IMG/VR virus record: IMGVR_UViG_3300032242_001861
Span: 1-25,480 of that record
Length of the DNA stretch: 25,480 nucleotides
Direction: 5' to 3' (one strand)
Source: a virus
Positions 729-21,964 of this stretch are shown here, in pieces. The notes below the pieces were generated by a model, which was not told where the DNA came from, searched no databases, and saw only the letters and a list, made by a program, of their open reading frames with translations. How positions within the stretch are numbered: the first letter of the stretch is position 1; each line of letters starts with the position of its first letter. The position numbers were made by a program, and so were the translations under genes.

Positions 729-1121
729 TTACTTGTTGAACTGTTCATCGAAACTGGGCTTAGAGTAGTCTGACTTGTTCTTGATCCCAACTCTCAAGGC
801 GATCTTTCCGCCGTCAGTTGTCAGGTTCATACTTTTGGCTAATCTGGGCCGGGGTTCCTGCCGGTAAATTAGCCGACGCTTGTTACCCTTATCATATACC
901 ATAACCACGTCGCCACGGGTCATACGCTCCAGCGCTCTGCTCACGGCGATTTGGGTGTGCTCGCTCATTGGAGTGTCCTTGATGTGGAACACGCGTTTGA
1001 GAAGCGACATGCTTAACCCTGACAGCTCCGCAAACATGGCAATGCTCAGCGTCTTGTCCTGGTCTTTCCAGAACCGTTCCATCTGGCGGTAGATTTCCGC
1101 CTTGCTGAGAATTGTCATCAT
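729..1121 (-). CDS. Hypothetical protein with helix-turn-helix-like N-terminal half
   Basis: This 130-residue protein starts at the ATG at 1121, whose ATGA overlaps the terminase stop codon. A longer in-frame extension into the terminase gene is possible but has no supporting ribosome binding site. Residues about 23-70 (TLSIAMFAELSGLS..LLKRVF.. through ..VSRALERM) read like a helix-turn-helix in which a recognition helix is followed by a charged helix. The C-terminal half is basic (GNKRRLIYRQEPRPRLAKS). DNA binding is plausible, and a small-terminase-like or packaging-accessory role is one possibility given the terminase and portal neighbours. That is inference; no family name is claimed. Confidence 0.7.
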   Translation of the reverse strand: MMTILSKAEIYRQMERFWKDQDKTLSIAMFAELSGLSMSLLKRVFHIKDTPMSEHTQIAVSRALERMTRGDVVMVYDKGNKRRLIYRQEPRPRLAKSMNLTTDGGKIALRVGIKNKSDYSKPSFDEQFNK

Positions 1122-2878
1122 TGCCCATAAATACCAATCTGCTTGAGGTAGGTAGAGACATTGCGGCCCACCGATAGTTCTTCCGGCGTTATACATTCTT
1201 GCGCGTTGGAGACCTGACGCGTCAAGCGCTCCATGAGAAGCCGGGGTTGAAGTTGTTCGGCGTAGGCCGCGCAGGCCAGCGCCATTGCAATCACGCGGTC
1301 GTCTTTGCCACGGCCCGGCGCGTGGATGGAACCACCTTCACGAACGATGCCCTTCATTTCCTCCAAGGTTTCCATTGAGACGACGGTCATCATCTGCCGC
1401 TCAAAATAATCCTTGGTGTAGTTCATCATCCGTTCTTTGGAGCCCTGCGTTGTCAGCCAGCCGATAGAGTTGGAGATGCCGCCAAGCGTATCGTTCTTGC
1501 GCCAGATATAGTTAGTCATCGAACTAAGAACGTGCATCAGACCTTTGCCGGTTGCCCCTCCAATGGAGACAGCTTGTCGCTTGAGGTTTCTTAGTTCGTT
1601 AATGACGGCTTGGCCGGGTCCATTAACTTCCAGATTAAGTGTGCTATTTTTATACGCTCCCGCCAGGTGAGCAATAACCCAGGCGAACTGGTAGGTGTTG
1701 AGTTCTGAGGTTGCGAATTCAGCAACTTGGTCGAGACCGTCAGCGTAACATCTAAAGACCTGGATACAGAAACGATCTGCCCAATCGCTACTTCCGTACG
1801 CAGGGTCTGCTCCGATAACGTAATAGGCAGTGTCAATTGGCTCTTCCCAGATTTTAAGCGTGGCGAGCTTGTCCGAGCTTTTGAGGACTTCGGTGTCTTG
1901 GAAGTTTGATCCGAAGGAATATCGGTAGGCGTCAAACTTTTTGTTCTTGGCGACACGGGCGGCCTCCGAGCATCTGGAGTTAGAGAAGAACGATGATCCC
2001 GTCATCACAAAAGCATAGTCTTCCGTGGGCGGGAATTCCTGATACATGAGCGCGTCGTCTTTGATGCCTTCATGCAGCTTCCACCGCCACCAAGCGATCT
2101 GCCGTGAGTTGATCTCAAAGCCGTACATCTTTTTGATGTCGCGGTTCCATTCTTTCTCTTCGCCGGTCAGCCTGCCGTCCCAATAGGTTTTGTAGACAGA
2201 GGACTCAGGATCGACGGAATAGAATTCGTTGCGCCACCATCCGCAGAAGATAGCCCGCTGTGTCTTGGCCTTCTTGGCGGTGACGTACATGTCATGGAAC
2301 ATGTTGAACCCGCGCGCCGTGCTCTCGAACATATAGAGGCGGTCGGGATTAGTCTCTGCAAGAGATGCCAACAGGGACGCCAAGCCCTCCTCGTCGCCCC
2401 AGGAGCTTGTCTCTGTGCCATGAAGGAAGGTGATAGCCTTACCGCGCCCAAGCGTTCCCTTGGCCCTTAGACCGGCCACCTGATAGAACAAGCGAGACCG
2501 ATTGCGCAAGCTCAGCGAGTTTCTGTTGTGGGTGATCTGCGGGATTTTGTATTCCTTGGGCAACCCATCCATGTACATGGCGAGGGTCGTCCTGAACATA
2601 TCCCGGTTTTCTTCGGTGTCTGTCGTCAGAGTAGCTTGGAGGCCAGGATGAGTAAAAGTCCAGTACAGATCAAGAGCCAAGCTAATGGTAGTGATGCCAA
2701 GCTGGCGGCCCTTAAGAATGACATAAAAATGGCAATCATCCTCTAACCCTTTCGCGATCTCGTTCATCACATAAGTCTGCGTTCCCAGAAGCTTGTCCAT
2801 CTTCCGAAGGCCCTGCTCCTTGGTCTCAATCTTGAGCTGAGAGCAGAAGTGGTAGAAGTGCTTCAGGTTAAACGTCAT
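1118..2878 (-). CDS. terL: Terminase large subunit (TerL), ATPase and nuclease
   Basis: This 586-residue protein is the packaging motor that moves DNA into the procapsid and cuts the concatemer. The Walker-A-like loop is KGRQLGITT at residues 56-64. The Walker-B region is LHGTETSSW at 152-160, with E156 as likely catalytic glutamate. The coupling motif is ESTARG at 185-190. The C-terminal RNase-H-like nuclease has D358 in GADPAYG, E417 in LEVNGPG and D526/D527 in KDDRVIA. All key residues are present and the length is normal for the family, so it should be intact. It lies just downstream of three tRNA genes and is followed by ATGA coupling to the next gene. No small terminase could be named with confidence. 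Confidence 0.95.
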   Translation of the reverse strand: MTFNLKHFYHFCSQLKIETKEQGLRKMDKLLGTQTYVMNEIAKGLEDDCHFYVILKGRQLGITTISLALDLYWTFTHPGLQATLTTDTEENRDMFRTTLAMYMDGLPKEYKIPQITHNRNSLSLRNRSRLFYQVAGLRAKGTLGRGKAITFLHGTETSSWGDEEGLASLLASLAETNPDRLYMFESTARGFNMFHDMYVTAKKAKTQRAIFCGWWRNEFYSVDPESSVYKTYWDGRLTGEEKEWNRDIKKMYGFEINSRQIAWWRWKLHEGIKDDALMYQEFPPTEDYAFVMTGSSFFSNSRCSEAARVAKNKKFDAYRYSFGSNFQDTEVLKSSDKLATLKIWEEPIDTAYYVIGADPAYGSSDWADRFCIQVFRCYADGLDQVAEFATSELNTYQFAWVIAHLAGAYKNSTLNLEVNGPGQAVINELRNLKRQAVSIGGATGKGLMHVLSSMTNYIWRKNDTLGGISNSIGWLTTQGSKERMMNYTKDYFERQMMTVVSMETLEEMKGIVREGGSIHAPGRGKDDRVIAMALACAAYAEQLQPRLLMERLTRQVSNAQECITPEELSVGRNVSTYLKQIGIYGQ

Positions 2879-2892
2879 GGTCCCTCGTGTGT

Positions 2893-2969
2893 TGGTGCGC
2901 CCGAAAGGATTTGAACCTCTGACCCTCGGTTTCGTAGACCGATGCTCTATCCGGCTGAGCTACGGGCGC
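2893..2969 (-). tRNA. tRNA-Arg (anticodon ACG)
   Basis: The minus strand folds as a full cloverleaf. The acceptor stem is GCGCCCG/CGGGCGC, and the anticodon stem TCGGT/ACCGA encloses loop CTACGAA, giving anticodon ACG (I34 after editing, reading CGU/CGC/CGA). The T-loop is TTCAAAT. The discriminator A and the 3' CCA (2895-2893) are encoded in the DNA. It is the first of three clustered tRNA genes going left to right. Confidence 0.95.
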
Positions 2970-2973
2970 ATAT

Positions 2974-3048
2974 TGGAGCGGGCGGGGGGAGTCGAACCCC
3001 TCGTCTTCAGCTTGGAAGGCTGTGGCTCTACCGTTGAGCTACGCCCGC
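2974..3048 (-). tRNA. tRNA-Gly (anticodon TCC)
   Basis: The minus-strand cloverleaf has a perfect acceptor stem, GCGGGCG/CGCCCGC, and anticodon loop CTTCCAA giving anticodon TCC (reads GGA/GGG). The CCA is encoded. Two outermost helix pairs are mismatched: A27 with A43 in the anticodon stem and A49 with C65 in the T stem. These could mark relaxed selection or fast evolution, but the loops and tertiary positions look functional. Confidence 0.92.
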
Positions 3049-3056
3049 CTATTGGG

Positions 3057-3134
<78 letters not shown>

Positions 3135-3139
3135 ACATT

Positions 3140-3211
3140 TCAGTATTTGATCAAGCCCATGATCGGCGTCAGACTAGTTGAGCATAGCAACCATCTCTTC
3201 AACCGTTTCAT
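3140..3211 (-). CDS. Possible 23-codon minicistron before the tRNA cluster
   Basis: An ATG at 3211-3209 overlaps the stop of the preceding gene as ATGA. It lies 5 bases after GGAGG, and the frame runs to a TGA at 3142-3140 just before the initiator tRNA gene. The peptide would start MKRLKRWLLCSTSLTP. The ribosome binding site and overlap are the only support. No homology is recognised and the frame may be fortuitous. Confidence 0.2.
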   Translation of the reverse strand: MKRLKRWLLCSTSLTPIMGLIKY

Positions 3212-3444
3212 TCAATCCTCCATACCCTGAAGCCGTCGTCCATCCTCCGGGTTGCGTACTTGCGAGAGTACGCCTTTCCAAACCGGCTGATCAAGCTGCG
3301 TGAGGTCTGCAAGAAAGACTTCGCATCCATATCCCCATAGGCCACGAAGAAGCTGTCGCCAACCTCCATCTCCGCCAAGGGAAACCGGTACTTCGGGGGA
3401 CGCGTGGTGTAACCCCTCATGGGCACACCAGGTTCTATCAGCAT
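3208..3444 (-). CDS. Small conserved phage protein (FPLAEMEVGDSFF...RVWRIE type)
   Basis: This 78-residue protein has the pattern FPLAEMEVGDSFFVA at residues 21-35, a middle helix (SLISRFGKAY) and a terminal TRRMDDGFRVWRIE. The same pattern recurs in many phage and plasmid small proteins of unknown function; I recall it as a DUF but did not check the number. A GAGGG site 7 bases upstream supports the ATG at 3444. It is the first gene of the leftward unit driven by the promoter at 3472-3499. An alternative, out-of-frame reading of the same DNA was rejected because it lacks this family pattern. Confidence 0.75.
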   Translation of the reverse strand: MLIEPGVPMRGYTTRPPKYRFPLAEMEVGDSFFVAYGDMDAKSFLQTSRSLISRFGKAYSRKYATRRMDDGFRVWRIE

Positions 3445-3471
3445 GTTTAACCCTCAAACATTATTTACGCA

Positions 3472-3499
3472 ATCATACTGTAATAATATACAATGTCCA
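3472..3499 (-). promoter_or_regulatory. Leftward sigma70-like promoter
   Basis: On the minus strand TGGACA (3499-3494) is followed after 16 bases by TATGAT (3477-3472). Each hexamer is one base from consensus. The expected start near 3465 leaves a leader of about 20 bases containing the GAGGG site of the gene starting at 3444. It would drive that gene, the tRNAs and the terminase-portal unit. Confidence 0.6.
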
Positions 3500-3578
3500 G
3501 ATAATTTTTGGGGGTAGCGCGATGTGGGGCACTCACTTCTGAGAGCTCGTGGACCCACCTCCTTTCCCTTTGTTCTGG

Positions 3579-3728
3579 TTCTACAGTCTCTGTTTGGTAA
3601 ATACATCATTACACATTCCTACACTGGTAATAGTAGGTTTACACATGTGTAGTATGGTAATCATGGTATTCTACAGCCTACCCATGTCCAATGTAGAATT
3701 CTACAGAGCGCGGGGGTAGGTACATACA
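3579..3728 (+). repeat. Five-unit array with exact 30-base period (operator or iteron array)
   Basis: Units start at 3579, 3609, 3639, 3669 and 3699. Each begins with a related octamer: TTCTACAG in units 1, 4 and 5, and TTACACAT in units 2 and 3. The first three also share TGGTAA at offset 17 (3595, 3625, 3655). The array includes two perfect palindromes, TACACATGTGTA (3640-3651) and TGTAGAATTCTACA (3692-3705). A 30-base spacing is close to three helical turns, so bound proteins would sit on one face of the DNA. Confidence 0.6.
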
Positions 3729-3764
3729 GACCGTTCTGTCTAGTCCTGAGATTGAACCTGTATC

Positions 3765-3823
3765 TTATGTAGTATCATATATACCACATACCCTATATGT
3801 ATATAATATATATAGGGGAGCTC
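3765..3823. other. AT-rich tract with TATA-rich inverted repeats
   Basis: The stretch is dominated by TATA steps (for example GTATATAATATATATAGG at 3799-3816). It follows the periodic array directly. Such a tract could melt easily and act as an unwinding element, or it could contain promoter -10 elements. The sequence does not decide between these. Confidence 0.4.
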
Positions 3824-3849
3824 TTTAATTGCTACGTTCAAGTAGTGTC

Positions 3850-3879
3850 ATGAGTGAAAATAATTCACATAAAACTCAT
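3850..3879. promoter_or_regulatory. Nested inverted repeats upstream of rightward promoter (operator candidate)
   Basis: The outer arms are ATGAGT (3850-3855) and ACTCAT (3874-3879). The inner arms are GTGAA (3854-3858) and TTCAC (3864-3868). They end 8 bases before the -35 element at 3888, a common place for an activator or repressor site. No binding protein can be assigned. Confidence 0.35.
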
Positions 3880-3887
3880 TTTATAGC

Positions 3888-3915
3888 TTGACGGCTATTC
3901 CAAGTGTGCTATTGT
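3888..3915 (+). promoter_or_regulatory. Rightward early promoter
   Basis: TTGACG (3888-3893), 16 bases, then TATTGT (3910-3915), preceded by TG at the extended -10 position. The predicted start is near 3922, giving a leader of about 26 bases for the gene starting at 3948. It would serve the early genes from 3948 to 5904. Confidence 0.5.
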
Positions 3916-3918
3916 CAT

Positions 3919-3937
3919 CTTGTCACTGAATGACAAG
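3919..3937 (+). promoter_or_regulatory. Hairpin or operator overlapping the first early ribosome binding site
   Basis: CTTGTCA (3919-3925) and TGACAAG (3931-3937) form a perfect 7-base inverted repeat around CTGAA. The right arm runs into the AAGGGG site of the next gene. As RNA it could partly hide that site; as DNA it lies at the predicted transcription start and could be an operator. Confidence 0.35.
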
Positions 3938-3947
3938 GGGACACACA

Positions 3948-4160
3948 ATGAAATATCAAGTTTACGGCGATTATGGTTATGAAGCAGAGTGCCTCCTGGA
4001 GGAATTCGCTACCCTGGCAGAAGCTAAACGCTGGGTGCAAGGGTACACGCGCCGCGATATGGGCGGGTATCAAGTTGTCGAAGTTTTAACCTTTGCCAAC
4101 AATAATCTGGCAGGCGAGATGATCCTACATTTCAGCGTGGGAGATGATCACAATGCTTAA
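3948..4160 (+). CDS. Small early protein, unknown function
   Basis: This 70-residue protein starts MKYQVYGDYGYEAECLLEEF. The ATG at 3948 is chosen over the in-frame ATG at 3930 because AAGGGG lies 7 bases upstream of it, and because 3930 lies inside the hairpin. A compact alpha/beta fold is suggested by the pattern 'yqVygdyGyea..l.eef.tlaeAkrWv.gy...d.GGYqvvevl'. This resembles small phage proteins that pair a sensor-like strand with an 'A..W' helix, but I cannot name a family. It is the first gene of the rightward early unit. Confidence 0.65.
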   Translation: MKYQVYGDYGYEAECLLEEFATLAEAKRWVQGYTRRDMGGYQVVEVLTFANNNLAGEMILHFSVGDDHNA

Positions 4161-4233
4161 CCTAATCACTGCAATCATGACACTGGTTTCATTCGCTACA
4201 GTTGGGGCGTTAATCGCCCTGGCTTTCATCTAA
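4153..4233 (+). CDS. 26-residue hydrophobic peptide (small membrane protein)
   Basis: The ATG at 4153 overlaps the end of the preceding gene by 8 bases, and GGGAG stands 9 bases upstream. The peptide starts MLNLITAIMTLVSFATVGAL and continues IALAFI before TAA. After the first few residues it is essentially one transmembrane helix. The 8-base overlap is the same arrangement used repeatedly at 9447-11583, which supports real translation. Function is unknown; small phage membrane peptides can act on host envelope proteins or in lysis timing, but nothing here shows which. Confidence 0.45.
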   Translation: MLNLITAIMTLVSFATVGALIALAFI

Positions 4234-4245
4234 CATTGCAAATCC

Positions 4246-4265
4246 GAGCCGCTTACGGGCGGCTC
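4246..4265 (+). other. Intergenic hairpin before the clamp-like gene
   Basis: GAGCCGC (4246-4252) pairs with GCGGCTC (4259-4265) around a 6-base loop. No run of T follows, so it is not a standard terminator. It may shield or process the mRNA between the small peptide gene and the clamp-like gene. Confidence 0.4.
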
Positions 4266-4301
4266 CAGTGTGCAATGCCGCACAATTAGGGGAACGTTAT
4301 C

Positions 4302-4913
4302 ATGATTATCAATCTCAAGGCCTTGAAAGCCGTTGCGCTGTTCTGTTCCAAAGAGGAAACACGCTATTACCTGAAAGGCGTCAATCTACAGTTTCGGTCT
4401 GATCATGTGATCATGGTTGCTACTAATGGGCACTACCTGACGGCTTTGCGTCAGTCCCTGGAAGAGCCGCTCGACAGTCCGATTGCAGATACCATCATCC
4501 CAATCGAATTGATTGACCGTATCAAGCTTTCCAAGCACTTGGACGTTTGCGAGCTTTACGTCGACAAAGGACGGATCACGATTACCTACTGCGGCGCGAC
4601 CTATGCGGACGGGGCGATTGACGCAAGCTTTCCAGACTGGCGCCGTGTTTCCCCGTCCAGCGTGTCGGGCGAAACTGCGCAGTTCGATGCGGCTTATCCC
4701 GCGCTGTTCCTCAAGGCGGCCCGCATGTTCGCAAAGGACGCTCAAATCAGAATAGGGCACAATGGCCTATCGCCTGCGCTGGTTTCCTGGCTCCCAAGTG
4801 AAGCCGGTTTGGACGCTTTCGGCGTGCTCATGCCAATGCGCACAAAGGACCATATGACCGTTCCCCCTATGTGGGCAGGCGTCATTGCGTCCAGCGTCTC
4901 ACAAGCGGCGTGA
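4302..4913 (+). CDS. Truncated DNA polymerase III beta-clamp-like protein
   Basis: This 203-residue protein matches the middle of bacterial sliding clamps. Residues about 18-50 (EETRYYLKGVNLQFRSD..VMVATNGHYLTAL) follow the domain-2 pattern 'etRyyLnGv.le......vATdGhrLa'. Residues about 66-90 (IPIELIDRIKLSK) and 92-118 (ITITYCGATYADGAID..FPDWRRVSP) follow the domain-2 end pattern '.idG.fPdy.rviP'. The length is just over half of a normal clamp (about 366), with the first domain and much of the third missing. The start is supported by AGGGGAA about 10 bases upstream. It may form an unusual ring, load onto host polymerase or act as a decoy; which of these cannot be told from sequence. Confidence 0.7.
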   Translation: MIINLKALKAVALFCSKEETRYYLKGVNLQFRSDHVIMVATNGHYLTALRQSLEEPLDSPIADTIIPIELIDRIKLSKHLDVCELYVDKGRITITYCGATYADGAIDASFPDWRRVSPSSVSGETAQFDAAYPALFLKAARMFAKDAQIRIGHNGLSPALVSWLPSEAGLDAFGVLMPMRTKDHMTVPPMWAGVIASSVSQAA

Positions 4914-5955: not shown

Positions 5956-6291
5956 CTATCTATCCCAGTATCTGTTCTGTCGCCGCTCTTCGCGCATGTG
6001 AGACGGGTCCATCTCATTCGGATCTAAACAAGGCAAGGTCAGCTTTCCGCCGCTTGTTAAGATAACCTTCCAGGTTTTGAGCGTCTTACGGCGCCCGCAG
6101 CTACCAAGGTATTCCTGCCATCGCTCCCAGACCTGAGCCTGAAGCTTCCCATCTTCGCTTTCGGCCTTGTCCCTTGGGTCAATCACAACGACACCAAAGG
6201 GGTTCACCTGAAGCTGCCCTATCAGCTTGTCGTAAAGCGGATCGGTTCGCGCGTCCTTGATGCGCTTTTCGCTCGTGTCCTGTTTCATCAT
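5956..6291 (-). CDS. Hypothetical protein at the end of the replication-initiation island
   Basis: This 111-residue protein starts at the ATG at 6291, overlapping the stop of the replisome-organizer-like gene as ATGA. It has a charged N-terminal helix (KQDTSEKRIKDARTDPLYDK), a strand-rich centre (NPFGVVVIDP) and a WERWQEYLGSCGRRKTLKTW segment. I do not recognise it. The coupling suggests it works with the replication protein, perhaps as an accessory. Confidence 0.65.
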   Translation of the reverse strand: MMKQDTSEKRIKDARTDPLYDKLIGQLQVNPFGVVVIDPRDKAESEDGKLQAQVWERWQEYLGSCGRRKTLKTWKVILTSGGKLTLPCLDPNEMDPSHMREERRQNRYWDR

Positions 6292-6875
6292 TCGAGCCCC
6301 AAGCCCCGTTTCATGCGAGCCAGGTTCTCCGCCCGGCTGATGACCGGCTGGTTTCCCTGGTAGCCCGATTGCTGCTGCTGATAGCCGTTCGGCCTGAATG
6401 GCGTCACGTTGCCCTGTTCGCGAACCCGCCGCATCCAATTGCGCCAGGTCGCATCCCAATCGGCCTTGACGCCTTTCTGCCCTGGAGCCGATCTGGCCCA
6501 GTCCCGAAACTTCTCAAGCTCCACCCCTTCCGCTTGAAACTCCCTCGGCTTCCAATCCTCAGAAAGACGAGCTGCGCGCTGTGCGCGCTTGACGGGTGTG
6601 GGGGTTAAGGAAGGGGGGTGTATAGTATTACTATAGGGGGATGGGGGGAAACCATCAGGGGGAGAGGGGTCCGCGGAATGTCCCGTGACATGTCCCGTGA
6701 CTGTCACGTGACCGGTTGTTTCCTTCGCTCTTTGCCTGATTTTTCTCTCGCGGTCATTCGCGCGGCGCTGGTCTATTAACGATTGTTTTTCGTCCAGATA
6801 GGTCAGAACCAGGCGCACGATTTCTAGCGTGGCCCCGGCTGCTTCCAACTGTTTTGTAAGCTCTGAGAGTGTCAT
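6288..6875 (-). CDS. Replisome-organizer-like replication initiation protein
   Basis: This 195-residue protein has three parts. There is an N-terminal helical segment (residues 1-50), and a flexible P/S/T-rich linker (about 52-100). The third part is a C-terminal block, LSEDWKPREFQ (104-114) followed by KADWDATWRNWMRRV (137-151). The 'W.p........FrdW......K.DWdatWrNWmrr' block is the usual C-terminal signature of phage replication (O-like or helicase-loader-like) proteins. The ATG at 6875 is chosen because GAGG lies 8 bases upstream; a longer in-frame extension has none. Three near-identical 11-base repeats lie within the linker coding sequence (6679-6712), as in phages whose origin lies inside the initiator gene. 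Its role would be to bring host helicase to the phage origin. Confidence 0.65.
   Translation of the reverse strand: MTLSELTKQLEAAGATLEIVRLVLTYLDEKQSLIDQRRANDRERKIRQRAKETTGHVTVTGHVTGHSADPSPPDGFPPSPYSNTIHPPSLTPTPVKRAQRAARLSEDWKPREFQAEGVELEKFRDWARSAPGQKGVKADWDATWRNWMRRVREQGNVTPFRPNGYQQQQSGYQGNQPVISRAENLARMKRGLGLE
6679..6712. repeat. Three 11-base direct repeats inside the replication gene (iteron candidate)
   Basis: TGTCCCGTGAC occurs at 6679-6689 and 6691-6701. A variant, TGTCACGTGAC, follows at 6702-6712 and contains the perfect palindrome GTCACGTGAC. About 45 bases to the left lies the inverted repeat TATAGTATTACTATA (6621-6635), the most AT-rich spot in a GC-rich gene. Repeats plus an adjacent AT-rich element fit an origin, but the repeats also encode GHVT repeats, so protein-level repetition is an alternative. 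Confidence 0.5.
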
Positions 6876-6933: not shown

Positions 6934-7016
6934 GTTCCTCCCAGAACGCGCATCCCCTGGCGGGTTAGATGCTTTGAAGGCCCGCAGTGTCCCCCGACAA
7001 GCGGGCCTTCTTTTTT
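6934..7016 (+). ncRNA. Possible small RNA ending at an orphan terminator
   Basis: If transcription starts near 6934 it would yield an RNA of about 83 bases that ends in the terminator at 6976-7016. It would be encoded between two leftward genes (139-base gap). The terminator loop contains TGTCCCCC (6988-6995), which is complementary to the GGGGACA found at several ribosome binding sites of this phage. No expression data exist. The promoter is weak, so this stays a hypothesis. Confidence 0.3.
6976..7016 (+). terminator. Strong rho-independent terminator, rightward
   Basis: GAAGGCCCGC (6976-6985) pairs perfectly with GCGGGCCTTC (7001-7010) around a 15-base loop. TTTTTT follows at 7011-7016, on the plus strand only. 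It lies between leftward genes, and the nearest rightward gene ends 1 kb upstream, so it is oriented against its surroundings. Confidence 0.75.
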
Positions 7017-7509
7017 ACTGTACACCTCCGCGCGCATGGGGCAAGCCGTTTGCTTGCGCGTAACGCTTCAAACCATGCAAGACGCTCGTGTGATCGCACC
7101 CAGACCGGCGGGCTATGTCCGCAATGCTCAGATGGGAGCATTCGCTCGCGACCCGGTGCCAAAAGTAGCGCCTGGCTTCCACGATGTACTTCTGGCGACG
7201 CTTCCCCATCAACATTTTGACTGGCACTTCTGTTTCCCGTGAAACATCCACAAGCACCTGTTGAAAGGTCCGGCGCGTCGTCTCGATCTTCTCCCAAGGA
7301 CACTTGTTCACAACCAGAATGAAATCGCGCTTGGGGTCTATCAGCGGCTTCACCGGAAGCGCATTGTTCACATACAAGACAAAATCAGGAATTTGTGCAG
7401 GTTCTGGCTCTTTCACCGGCTCTTTTGGCTTTGGTGCTGGTCCCTCCCTTAATCTTTTTCTCACCTGTGCATAATGTGTGGATAACTCACGCTCGTAGTC
7501 ACTCAACAT
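7015..7509 (-). CDS. Stand-alone DnaA domain IV protein (DnaA-box reader)
   Basis: In this 164-residue protein, residues about 83-152 match the DNA-binding domain IV of the replication initiator DnaA. The match comprises QQVLVDVSRETEVPVKML, the basic loop GKRRQKYIVEAR (102-113), LSIADIARRSG (127-137) and the signature DHTSVLHG (139-146; DnaA has DHTTVLHA-like). There is no AAA+ ATPase domain. The N-terminal 80 residues have a P/E/K-rich linker (about 24-40) and a short strand region. The start at 7509 overlaps the upstream gene by 11 bases. Expected role: bind DnaA boxes on phage or host DNA, either to direct initiation or to block the host origin or regulate genes. Two perfect boxes lie in its own 5' coding region. 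Confidence 0.8.
   Translation of the reverse strand: MLSDYERELSTHYAQVRKRLREGPAPKPKEPVKEPEPAQIPDFVLYVNNALPVKPLIDPKRDFILVVNKCPWEKIETTRRTFQQVLVDVSRETEVPVKMLMGKRRQKYIVEARRYFWHRVASECSHLSIADIARRSGCDHTSVLHGLKRYAQANGLPHARGGVQ
7466..7485 (-). promoter_or_regulatory. Two tandem consensus DnaA boxes
   Basis: On the minus strand TTATCCACA (7485-7477) is followed after 2 bases by TTATGCACA (7474-7466). Both fit TTATNCACA at all positions and point the same way. They lie in codons about 9-15 of the DnaA-like gene. I found no other perfect box by eye in the window. Confidence 0.8.
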
Positions 7510-7681
7510 GTTTAACTTCCTCTGTTTTTTCTTCTGGCTGCGGCAGGTTGACGCAGGCGTCTAAACCCTTCGCAATGAGGTATTTTACTGCTTCAGTCTC
7601 GCTTTTGAAGCGCTCATTAAACCGAAAATCTTCAATGGCCTGCGCCATTTCGTCACTGAGATTGTACACGCATCGCTTCAT
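7499..7681 (-). CDS. Ribbon-helix-helix-like regulator
   Basis: This 60-residue protein reads MKRCVYNLSDEMAQAIEDF, then a helix with R and E and ETEAVKYLIAKGLDA. The pattern is one short strand plus two helices, as in CopG/Arc-type repressors, which bind DNA as dimers. ATG 7681 is preferred because AGGGG lies 6 bases upstream; an in-frame ATG 8 codons earlier has no such site. It is first in the leftward island and lies next to an imperfect palindrome (7699-7716), so autoregulation and control of the divergent recombination unit are likely. The C-terminal tail (PQPEEKTEEVKHVE) is charged. Confidence 0.65.
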   Translation of the reverse strand: MKRCVYNLSDEMAQAIEDFRFNERFKSETEAVKYLIAKGLDACVNLPQPEEKTEEVKHVE

Positions 7682-7698
7682 GATAGTCCCCTGTTGAA

Positions 7699-7716
7699 TT
7701 GACAATAAATTGTTAA
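7699..7716. promoter_or_regulatory. Imperfect palindrome in divergent promoter region (operator candidate)
   Basis: TTGACAATAAATTGTTAA matches its own reverse complement at 7 of 9 pairs. ATTGACAA occurs here (7698-7705) and again at 7733-7740. The site lies between the ribbon-helix-helix gene and the rightward recombination genes, so it is a natural target for that regulator. Confidence 0.4.
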
Positions 7717-7733
7717 ACCATAACGCAAGTCTA

Positions 7734-7757
7734 TTGACAAGTGGTAATGATGGGCTC
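7734..7757 (+). promoter_or_regulatory. Rightward promoter candidate for the recombination genes
   Basis: A perfect TTGACA lies at 7734-7739, but the bases about 17-18 downstream (CTAATT or TAATTG) match a -10 element poorly. Some promoter is required here because the upstream genes point the other way. An activator-dependent promoter is possible. Confidence 0.3.
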
Positions 7758-7794
7758 TAATTGGGCCTGTCGCATCAGACACACGGGGACAAAC

Positions 7795-8688
7795 ATGGAC
7801 GGATTTAGCAAAGAGGAACGGGCTACGGCCTGGTGGGCAACGGATAGCCGCAGGGCGGTTTCTGGCAATTTATATGAAGTCTTAAGAGAGAAGTGGGGCG
7901 AGATTGAGCGCCCTGATCTCTCAGGCATTGAGGCGGTTCGCATGGGCTTGATGATGCAGCCCGCGATTGCCGATATTTTTACGGACGTGACGAAGATCAC
8001 GACGAGCCCGCTGGATGAACCAGGCACCTGCCGCACCCAGCCGTGGCTCCGCGCGCATTTTGATTTTGTGACTGAAGATGGCGGTCTTCTGGAAGTGAAG
8101 AACTTCAACATCGCGACCATCAACAAATACTCCGAGATGGACGAGCCCATTCGCATCCCAGAGGCCGACTACATTCAGTGCTTGCACGAGGCCGTGGTGC
8201 GCGGCGTTCCTCACGTCTATTTCGCGGTTCTGTTCGGTGGTCAGCAGTTTCGCTACTACAAGCTGGAATTCACGCCCGCTGAGAAAGAGGCGTTCATACA
8301 GCGCGCTGCGCAGTGGTGGGGCTTTGTAAATTCTCGCCTTCTTCCAGAGCCGACTAACTCTGAAGAGGCCACTATACGCTTCCCCAAGAGCATGGAGGGC
8401 TATGTTACCGCAGACGCCACCGTTGAAGCTGTCGCGAAAGAGCTGCGTCATGTGAAGAACCAAATCAAGCAGCTTGAAGAATACGAAGAGAAGGCGACTT
8501 TTGTGCTGCAAAAGTGCATGGGCGAGAGCGGCACGCTGATGAATGTTGCCGGTGAGACGTTGGCTACATGGAAATCAGCGAAAGGCTCAAAGCGTTTTGA
8601 CGCGAAGGCGTTCAAAGAGAGCCACCCTGGCCTTTACGCTGAATATGAAAAAGAAACAGCCGGTTCGCGCCGGTTTCTCGTGAAGTGA
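7795..8688 (+). CDS. YqaJ-type viral recombination exonuclease
   Basis: This 297-residue protein would resect double-strand ends 5' to 3' and load the annealing protein encoded next. The N-terminus shows the family pattern of a helix with an early E/R-rich segment (SKEERATAWW). Further on is HFDFVTEDGGLLEVKNFN (residues about 97-114), where the D and E-x-K form the PD-(D/E)xK nuclease core. EADYIQCLHEAVVRGVPHVYFAVLFGG follows, with the family's Q at the motif after the core. The C-terminal third is a coiled coil (VAKELRHVKNQIKQLEEYEEK) plus a basic end. ATG 7795 follows CGGGGACAAAC; an in-frame upstream GTG lacks a site. It is followed by the RecT-like gene after 7 bases. Confidence 0.85.
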   Translation: MDGFSKEERATAWWATDSRRAVSGNLYEVLREKWGEIERPDLSGIEAVRMGLMMQPAIADIFTDVTKITTSPLDEPGTCRTQPWLRAHFDFVTEDGGLLEVKNFNIATINKYSEMDEPIRIPEADYIQCLHEAVVRGVPHVYFAVLFGGQQFRYYKLEFTPAEKEAFIQRAAQWWGFVNSRLLPEPTNSEEATIRFPKSMEGYVTADATVEAVAKELRHVKNQIKQLEEYEEKATFVLQKCMGESGTLMNVAGETLATWKSAKGSKRFDAKAFKESHPGLYAEYEKETAGSRRFLVK

Positions 8689-15048: not shown

Positions 15049-15639
15049 ATGACAAAGAACCGGTACGTCCCACTTAACTGTTCTGTGTGCGATTGCAGTC
15101 TACGCCAGAGGGCGTCTGACCGCAATAGAACAGGAATGTGCATTACTTGCTTCAATAAGTCACGCACAATAATCAATAAAATTGACATACGTCTCAAACG
15201 CATCTGGGTAAATATGCACTCTAGGTGCTTGAAAGCGTCACACAAATCATATCCGAGGTATGGTGGAAGAGGGATAACGATATTTGAGCCGTGGATCTTG
15301 TCTTTTGAAGATTTCCGAGATTGGGCGGTTGTAACCGGTTATCAAGATCATCTTACCCTTGAAAGAATGGATAATGACAAAGGTTATTGCCCTGAAAATT
15401 GTGTTTGGATCGAAAAAGAATACCAATCTTACAACAAGTCGTCAGGTTTAAGTTGGGTTTTGGTTAACGAAATAAGGGCATTGAACAAAACCGTAAATTA
15501 CCGCGTTCTTGCAGAAAAATACGGTGTCCATAAAACAACAATTGTTAGAGTTGTTCAAAATAAAATTTGGGTAGACGCTTCTTATCAGCCTATCCCTCAT
15601 CCTCAGTCAGAAAGCCAGAGCCATATTCCGCGTCCGTGA
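15049..15639 (+). CDS. Free-standing HNH-type homing endonuclease
   Basis: This 196-residue protein has an N-terminal zinc ribbon, C11-x2-C14 and C31-x2-C34. Its core is RIWVNMHSRC (51-60), YGGRGITIFEPW (71-82) and LTLERMDNDKGYCPENCVW (102-120), a pattern shared by many phage HNH and AP2-type mobile endonucleases. The C-terminus (135-173) looks like a helix-turn-helix (NYRVLAEKYGVHKTTIVRVV). It lies on the opposite strand to all neighbours, appears more AT-rich, and overlaps the 3' end of the adjacent gene by 50 bases, as expected for an inserted selfish gene. Confidence 0.78.
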   Translation: MTKNRYVPLNCSVCDCSLRQRASDRNRTGMCITCFNKSRTIINKIDIRLKRIWVNMHSRCLKASHKSYPRYGGRGITIFEPWILSFEDFRDWAVVTGYQDHLTLERMDNDKGYCPENCVWIEKEYQSYNKSSGLSWVLVNEIRALNKTVNYRVLAEKYGVHKTTIVRVVQNKIWVDASYQPIPHPQSESQSHIPRP

Positions 15640-20939: not shown

Positions 20940-21964
20940 TACGTCACCGTGGTTCCAACGTCTCTCAGAGACTTGTCCGTGTCACTCCAAACGTTCTTTG
21001 GAGCCTTGTCTTCGCCACCAGCACCCCCAAGCACCGGGCCACTAGGACTATACCCTATGCCGGGAGCTGAGAACAGAGCAGACCCAAGAACGCTTGGAGA
21101 CCCTGCAAACTGGAATGATTGAGATGCGCCAGGCGAAAAAGTTCCGGTTGTAGCTGTAGAAGACGTTCCATTTGTAGCTGTAGAAGACGTTCCATTTGTA
21201 GCTGTAGAAGACGTTCCGCTTGAACCGCCAGAAATACCAAAGCCACCAGATCCACCGGAAATACCGGAACTGCTTTTGTTTCCCGCTGGAAATGCTTTTC
21301 CTAATTCGTAACTAATAGCTGGGCCAAGAAGCCCACTTGCTATCTGTCCCAGCAATCCGTAATTGGAAAGACCTAATCCTTCAGACAAGCCCGCAGACAA
21401 TCCGCCAGACGCGCCGCTGATAGCGCCGGTTCTAAGAGCCGAACTGAGATTTGCGCCGCCAGCTAAAGCACCAGTTGTGCCGCCAATTAATCCGCCTGCG
21501 CCCTTTGTCGCGGCTGCACCCAACGCTGTTGAACCCGCTATAGTAGGCTTAACTGCGTCACTAGGTATTTGGGGGCCTTCTGAACCAACTGCCGAAACTG
21601 CATTTTCCCCGCCAAGTGCTCCAGAAACAGCTCCGCTGGCAAGGGCTCCAACACCGCCTGTAACGCCGCCAACTAAAGCTGCTTTGGCAATATTCTGGTC
21701 ATTGATAGCAGCGCTCAAGGCACTTGTACCAGCACCAAGCACAGCACCGCCAACCGTTGAAGCTACAGTCGCCGTTCCAACAATTGTAGACTCGGCAACA
21801 GCGGCGGATACACCAACTGTTTCAAGAATAGTCGACCCAATAATGCCAGCCGCAGCTCCACCCGTCGCAATTGTAGCTACAACAGCGATAACGGGAACAA
21901 TAACTTGTTTTAGATTGATCCCAAAATCCGCAGCTTTTTGCCCAAACCACCCACCCCAGGTCAT
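20939..21964 (-). CDS. Glycine/alanine-rich virion protein with glycine zippers
   Basis: This 341-residue protein starts MTWGGWFGQKAADFGINLKQ, then a hydrophobic stretch (VIVPVIAVVATIATGGAAAGI). Glycine-zipper repeats follow through about residue 215 (GGVTGGVGALASGAVSGALGG and similar), then an S/G/T-rich region with three GTSSTATN repeats. Glycine zippers pack membrane helices, so it may insert into the host envelope during ejection. ATG 21964 overlaps the upstream stop as ATGA. Confidence 0.65.
   Translation of the reverse strand: MTWGGWFGQKAADFGINLKQVIVPVIAVVATIATGGAAAGIIGSTILETVGVSAAVAESTIVGTATVASTVGGAVLGAGTSALSAAINDQNIAKAALVGGVTGGVGALASGAVSGALGGENAVSAVGSEGPQIPSDAVKPTIAGSTALGAAATKGAGGLIGGTTGALAGGANLSSALRTGAISGASGGLSAGLSEGLGLSNYGLLGQIASGLLGPAISYELGKAFPAGNKSSSGISGGSGGFGISGGSSGTSSTATNGTSSTATNGTSSTATTGTFSPGASQSFQFAGSPSVLGSALFSAPGIGYSPSGPVLGGAGGEDKAPKNVWSDTDKSLRDVGTTVT
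21141..21212 (-). repeat. 24-base minisatellite, three copies
   Basis: Units at 21141-21164, 21165-21188 and 21189-21212 are identical except for two bases of the first. They encode T-S-S-T-A-T-N-G (8 codons). Exact multiples of 8 codons keep the frame, so copy number could vary between phage relatives. Confidence 0.9.

Follow-up and report, generated by a model that had tools for sequence, protein, structure and literature searches.

A conserved array of 30-bp-spaced dyads beside an AT-rich tract in an uncultured freshwater phage, with a replication-origin element as the favored but tentative reading

Tandem arrays of the kind described here are already known. Lambda OR/OL is a phage multi-operator region between divergent promoters, and the consensus of the DnaA box is TTWTNCACA. 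The origins of lambda and Stx phages combine a binding-site array, the O-protein iterons, with an AT-rich tract (PMC7466680), and the origin of plasmid pMBL6842 combines an AT-rich element with GTGTAG/TTTGTA repeats, where RepB and the ribbon-helix-helix (RHH) antitoxin PrpA bind competitively (PMC7848731).

The window analysed here is the whole 25,480-base stretch of an IMG/VR record of an uncultured tailed phage, a freshwater bacterial virus. It encodes an endolysin, a RecE/RecT/SSB/RusA recombination set and three tRNA genes. According to the ORF list, late genes run leftward from about 3444 and replication-side genes rightward from about 3945. The terminase large subunit gene, terL, lies at 1118-2878 on the minus strand, and the first large rightward gene, at 4302-4913 on the plus strand, encodes a sliding-clamp (DnaN-like) protein (PF02767, 5.9e-11; TIGR00663, 1.7e-10). 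The PHROG 3007 label of this protein is RusA-like resolvase; given that Pfam and NCBIfam match the sliding clamp instead, the label looks wrong. Megablast of the window against named phages returned only short stretches at the tRNA-Met gene, and an Rfam search of 2800-4400 returned tRNAs only. Literature searches that addressed DnaA domains in phages, iterons, phages of fresh water and terminase sites listed no paper on this phage group; subscription journals were covered little, so absence is not demonstrated. Weak hints on the host come from two terL relatives, one placed in a betaproteobacterial metagenome bin and the other in a bin of Balneolaceae.

Between the leftward and rightward genes, a sequence-only reading of the window had described a five-unit array with 30-base periodicity, and all of its positions proved correct. 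The units begin at 3579, 3609, 3639, 3669 and 3699 with TTCTACAG, TTACACAT, TTACACAT, TTCTACAG and TTCTACAG, respectively, TGGTAA recurs at 3595, 3625 and 3655, and two palindromes lie inside, one of 12 bases (TACACATGTGTA, 3640-3651) and one of 14 bases (TGTAGAATTCTACA, 3692-3705). The periodicity is real: the self-match at lag 30 is 57/120, for a dinucleotide-shuffle mean of 30.6 (sd 4.9). In the shuffled-control check, none of 5000 dinucleotide shuffles reached 57 at lag 30 and none of 5000 did so at any lag from 15 to 60; likewise, 17 6-mers recurred at multiples of 30 (shuffle mean 0.14). Tandem Repeats Finder, at a score of 30, did not call the array because the copies are too unlike.

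The unit had been taken as a 30-bp block with these starts; a 21-bp dyad, TNNACR-N9-TGTNNA, repeated every 30 bp describes it better and was obtained from a 22-column motif by motif fitting on 12 contigs. Its half-site reads W-T-N-N-M-C-A (92 halves), a profile without the leading TT of the DnaA box. The dyad axis, at position 11, was taken from column frequencies; a wide-arm palindrome scan gave no clean axis, and short-width motif fits were uninformative. Sites were scored with a symmetrised matrix in which the central nine bases are ignored. The array holds four copies of the dyad and a weak fifth one, and a conserved AT-rich tract contains a further copy. The predicted sites are S1 (3580-3600, 11.6 bits), S2 (3610-3630, 13.5 bits), S3 (3640-3660, 13.5 bits, overlapping the 12-base palindrome) and S4 (3670-3690, 11.9 bits). 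S5 (3700-3720) enters the best chain at a 4-bit threshold, scores below 5 bits in the site scan and is kept in the close relatives L002 and L008; the fifth unit is weak and occurs in close relatives only. The outlying site, S6 (3783-3803), scores 10.5 bits and was outside the training set. As for the idea that the spacing would place a protein array on one face of the DNA, exact one-face spacing does not hold: 30 bp is 2.86 turns at 10.5 bp per turn, and successive units are therefore turned by about -51 degrees. Elsewhere in the window, outside the array and S6, sites of at least 10 bits number 3 (shuffled mean 3.05); in two near-complete relatives, G002 and G011, 5/9 and 6/9 hits lie outside the array and S6, with shuffled means, summed over two pieces, of 4.15 and 4.5. 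Such chance-level numbers point to one dedicated locus rather than a regulon.

How, then, does the locus compare with the described systems? It resembles the lambdoid/Stx origin in having tandem sites (four to six in that origin, for a dimeric protein) beside an AT-rich tract, the sites here being predicted from sequence (PMC7466680). The lambdoid/Stx origin lies inside the initiator gene, whereas our phage array is intergenic and about 2.6 kb from the initiator-like gene (PMC7466680). The 21-bp dyad, the 30-bp pitch and the outlying site in the AT-rich tract are further differences, and one array class occurs alongside four initiator N-termini, which is not the lambda-O pattern. Since the array lies outside the initiator's variable part and is not inherited with it, we did not file it as a lambda-type origin. 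The likeness to pMBL6842 consists of an array with an AT-rich element and an RHH gene encoded nearby (PMC7848731), and the half-site here is often TGTGTA or TGTAGA. The pMBL6842 repeats, however, are short hexamers, and a motif common to array and promoter lets PrpA bind at its own promoter as well (PMC7848731); no such sharing is seen here. The promoter of the RHH gene in the window lacks the motif, and for this reason the array was not classed as a PrpA-type origin either. With oriC-type DnaA-box clusters the locus has in common a half-site that overlaps the end of the DnaA-box consensus and an encoded DnaA-domain protein, but the array itself holds no DnaA box, the only two in the window being in the DnaA-domain gene. 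With lambda OR/OL it shares several dyads between divergent transcription units and differs in its strict 30-bp pitch and in sites that lie off the predicted core promoters.

The unit was also sought in relatives. We scanned 144 sequences, namely the window and L001-L143, many of which overlap on one contig, and the array was found in 19 distinct contigs including the window, that is, in 18 others. Chained-site scores ranged from 29 to 61; in 384 shuffled control sequences the 95th percentile was 17.0 and the maximum 22.0. Training sites came from 12 of the 19 contigs, and the other seven are mostly close to a training contig, with L122 the most independent. Arrays fall into two subtypes, A with TTCTACA/TGGTAA and B with TTACACG/TGTGGWTTA; the window is A-type and differs in this from L003, L009, L012 and L021. 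Columns of the dyad core are better conserved than the others by 0.28, and 0/20000 random column sets do as well (nine contigs), a constraint that lends support without being independent proof because the core was picked from mostly the same sequences. In an alignment of ten sequences (the window and nine distinct relatives, L018 having been dropped as a duplicate of L009), mean pairwise identity is 0.674 for the array, 0.98 for the left promoter, 0.917 for the flank element and 0.907 for the AT-rich tract. Among eight near-complete contigs, the array is present in G002 and G011 only; the five without RHH and DnaA-domain genes have none, and with this matrix none is detected in G023, whose copies of both genes are distant. 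In the fragment G017, which has the two genes together with the pair of DnaA boxes, a chain of two sites scores 21.5, less than the shuffled maximum. Nothing convincing was found by way of equivalent arrays upstream of terL in distant relatives, except for a 38-base lag in L068.

These comparisons make it highly improbable that the array is an accident of chance or composition without function. Such an artefact would fit the silence of Tandem Repeats Finder and the closeness of many relatives, but it sits badly with the shuffles (0/5000), with the constraint on core bases and with recurrence in the divergent relatives L011, L014, L015 and L016, as well as in L122, which lies outside the training set. 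The claim of a protein-site array between divergent transcription units is supported, as far as sequence comparison goes, by the 18 other contigs, the constraint on dyad bases and the promoter-like sites on both sides. The array is real, conserved and functional-looking, and adds a new instance to an already known class of device.

On either side of it lie further conserved elements. The AT-rich tract (3756-3812; 75.4% AT), a candidate unwinding element, contains a TATAAT at 3802-3807 that is overlapped by S6 and has no clear -35. A counterpart of S6 of at least 9.3 bits occurs at the matching place in 16 of the 18 array-bearing sequences examined, the exceptions being L007, which ends before the place, and L016. 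Between S4 and S6 the distance ranges from 113 to 145 bp, with no helical phase kept. To the left, a conserved flank element (3500-3534) consists of a T run, a G run and GCGCGATGTGGGG, and S1 starts 49-59 bp from its GATGTGGGG. This G-rich noncoding stretch, TTTTTGGGGG...GTGGGGTGCACG, lies between the leftward promoter and the array, is also found in the array-less L025-L032, and is possibly a packaging or promoter element. The predicted leftward promoter of a 78-aa gene, the tRNAs and terL is at 3472-3499 on the minus strand (TGGACA-16-TATGAT); that of the replication-side genes is at 3888-3915 on the plus strand (TTGACG-16-TATTGT, with TG before the -10). Array sites overlap neither predicted core promoter, with 80 bp to the left one and 84 bp from S6 to the right one.

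Which protein would fill these sites? We infer two leading candidates of about equal likelihood, an RHH protein (7499-7681, minus strand) and a DnaA domain IV protein (7015-7509, minus strand), encoded by adjacent genes that occur in the same 7/30 records. One or both of these genes are on at least 9/19 array contigs; the rest are fragments. The RHH protein matches phrog_4738, a phage repressor family, at 3e-7, and its predicted model (mean pLDDT 78.8) is closest to NikR, TCP, ParD and PrpA folds, with weak matches (all E>0.1, best E 0.23). In the window, its N-terminal strand departs from the common sequence at two residues (C4, N7), a change in step with the A-type array in this one genome only. 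Possibly L109 and L008 are two parts of a single phage, split at the initiator gene, in which case the common-type RHH strand would accompany an A-type array. The DnaA-domain protein (PF08299, 1.3e-8) keeps the KRR and DHT motifs and aligns to the E. coli DnaA domain structure 1j1v (E 0.01), with no AAA+ domain found. The window and L003 have almost identical DNA-binding domains in this protein, although their arrays are of two subtypes.

Two other proteins were considered. The initiator/primosomal-like gene (6288-6872, minus strand) has an N-terminus swapped among relatives, with at least four types: I in the window; II in L108, L114 and L123; III in L111, L112 and L120; and IV in L122 and L124. 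Its C-terminus is mostly common to close relatives, and the differing N-termini are a sign of module swapping. The N-terminus was rejected as a binder, as the arrays of L009 (type III) and L021 (type II) are almost identical; more generally, four N-terminal forms all occur with the same array class, which makes this protein an unlikely binder. An alternative candidate is a 130-aa helix-turn-helix (HTH) protein adjoining terL (729-1121, minus strand), whose gene comes directly after terL at 96 loci, a count for this terminase family that includes overlapping ones. The protein's model (pLDDT 88.5) matches XRE-type regulators and not terminases, and the protein could be a small terminase or a regulator.

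Both functions that the sequence-only reading had offered, an operator switch and an origin with iterons, remain candidates. We lean toward the origin: our tentative reading, to which we give a probability of roughly 0.4, is that an iteron-like nucleoprotein complex assembles on the array, which would lie at the phage's replication origin or in the region controlling it. The dyads would be filled in tandem and cooperatively by a DNA-binding protein of the phage, dimeric or multimeric, that would bend or wrap the DNA; through S6, the AT-rich tract could then be strained or melted, and the opened tract would let a helicase loader (the primosomal-like protein) act, the replication genes starting just rightward. 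The conserved array, the placement of S6 in the AT-rich tract, the single locus, the sites lying off the predicted promoters, the parallels of layout with lambda/Stx and pMBL6842 and the joint occurrence of the RHH and DnaA-domain genes in those 7/30 records support an origin. Against it, the AT-rich tract is conserved in sequence and not only in composition, which a promoter would also explain; the variable S4-S6 distance counts against a rigid loop; and G023 has no array despite its distant RHH and DnaA-domain genes, and the chain of G017 stays below the shuffled maximum. A close rival, somewhat less favored, is a multi-operator switch in which a repressor or activator, probably the RHH protein, would sit on the array and S6 and, through looping, spreading or upstream activation, set the leftward late operon in balance with the rightward replication operon. 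The position between divergent promoter-like sites, the 0.98 conservation of the left promoter, the overlap of S6 with TATAAT, the match of the RHH protein to a phage repressor family and the joint departure of the window's RHH strand and array subtype from those of L003, L009, L012 and L021 all suit such a switch. It is harder to reconcile with distances of 80 and 84 bp to the predicted core promoters, with S4-S6 spacing that keeps no helical phase, and with the RHH gene's own promoter (7640-7800), where the best score is 6.3 bits and no matching site is seen, nor any excess elsewhere; besides, the link between subtype and protein comes from one genome.

Less likely than either, and on balance doubtful, is that the array and flank element form a cos or pac packaging region, with the array bound by a small terminase such as the 130-aa HTH protein. 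The location upstream of terL, the HTH protein beside terL in those 96 loci, the G-rich element common to L025-L032 (terL 83-84% identical) and the 2/21 contigs with an end no more than about 35 bases from the flank element would all agree with packaging, yet distant relatives that have retained terL and the HTH protein lack the array, the flank element was matched in only 9/58 relatives examined, and the HTH model resembles XRE-type regulators. The two contig ends are moreover on opposite sides, with no pile-up at one base, which is weak evidence against it.

The origin reading also has to accommodate the DnaA boxes. Two tandem perfect boxes lie at 7466-7485 on the minus strand (starts 7466 and 7477), at the 5' end of the DnaA-domain gene. 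They are the only two TTWTNCACA boxes in the window, and G002 and G011 likewise have one tandem pair only; no such box occurs within the array. Both are kept as TTATNCACA in 16/16 sequences examined, the sole amino-acid change in the stretch being Ser to Cys in L110, on the N (the degenerate base) of a box. Synonymous variation is seen in codons beside the boxes, and multiplying the window's own codon fractions over the six codons gives 1.4e-4. The pair, 3.8 kb from the array, may be the real DnaA-type origin or an autoregulatory site, and it makes it less secure that no origin exists besides the array. No clear origin signal emerged from GC skew in two near-complete relatives.

The array thus offers a defined, testable cis-element in an uncultured phage group, with exact sites and two named candidate binders. 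A more specific proposal, which we regard as improbable at present, is that the DnaA-domain protein binds the origin by recognising inverted half-sites akin to the end of a DnaA box, the origin staying constant while the helicase loader swaps its N-terminus among at least four types. Were the origin reading true, a phage origin would have remained constant while its loader protein was recombined, which would bear on the shuffling of phage replication modules and on the reuse of DnaA-domain proteins.

Two features elsewhere in the window were noted in passing. The leftward late operon contains, at 15049-15639, a plus-strand ORF of 196 aa that lies in a stretch of low GC (0.416) and looks by eye like an inserted HNH-type gene. 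A 24-bp tandem repeat at 21141-21217 (3.2 copies, 96% matches) lies inside a leftward late-region ORF.
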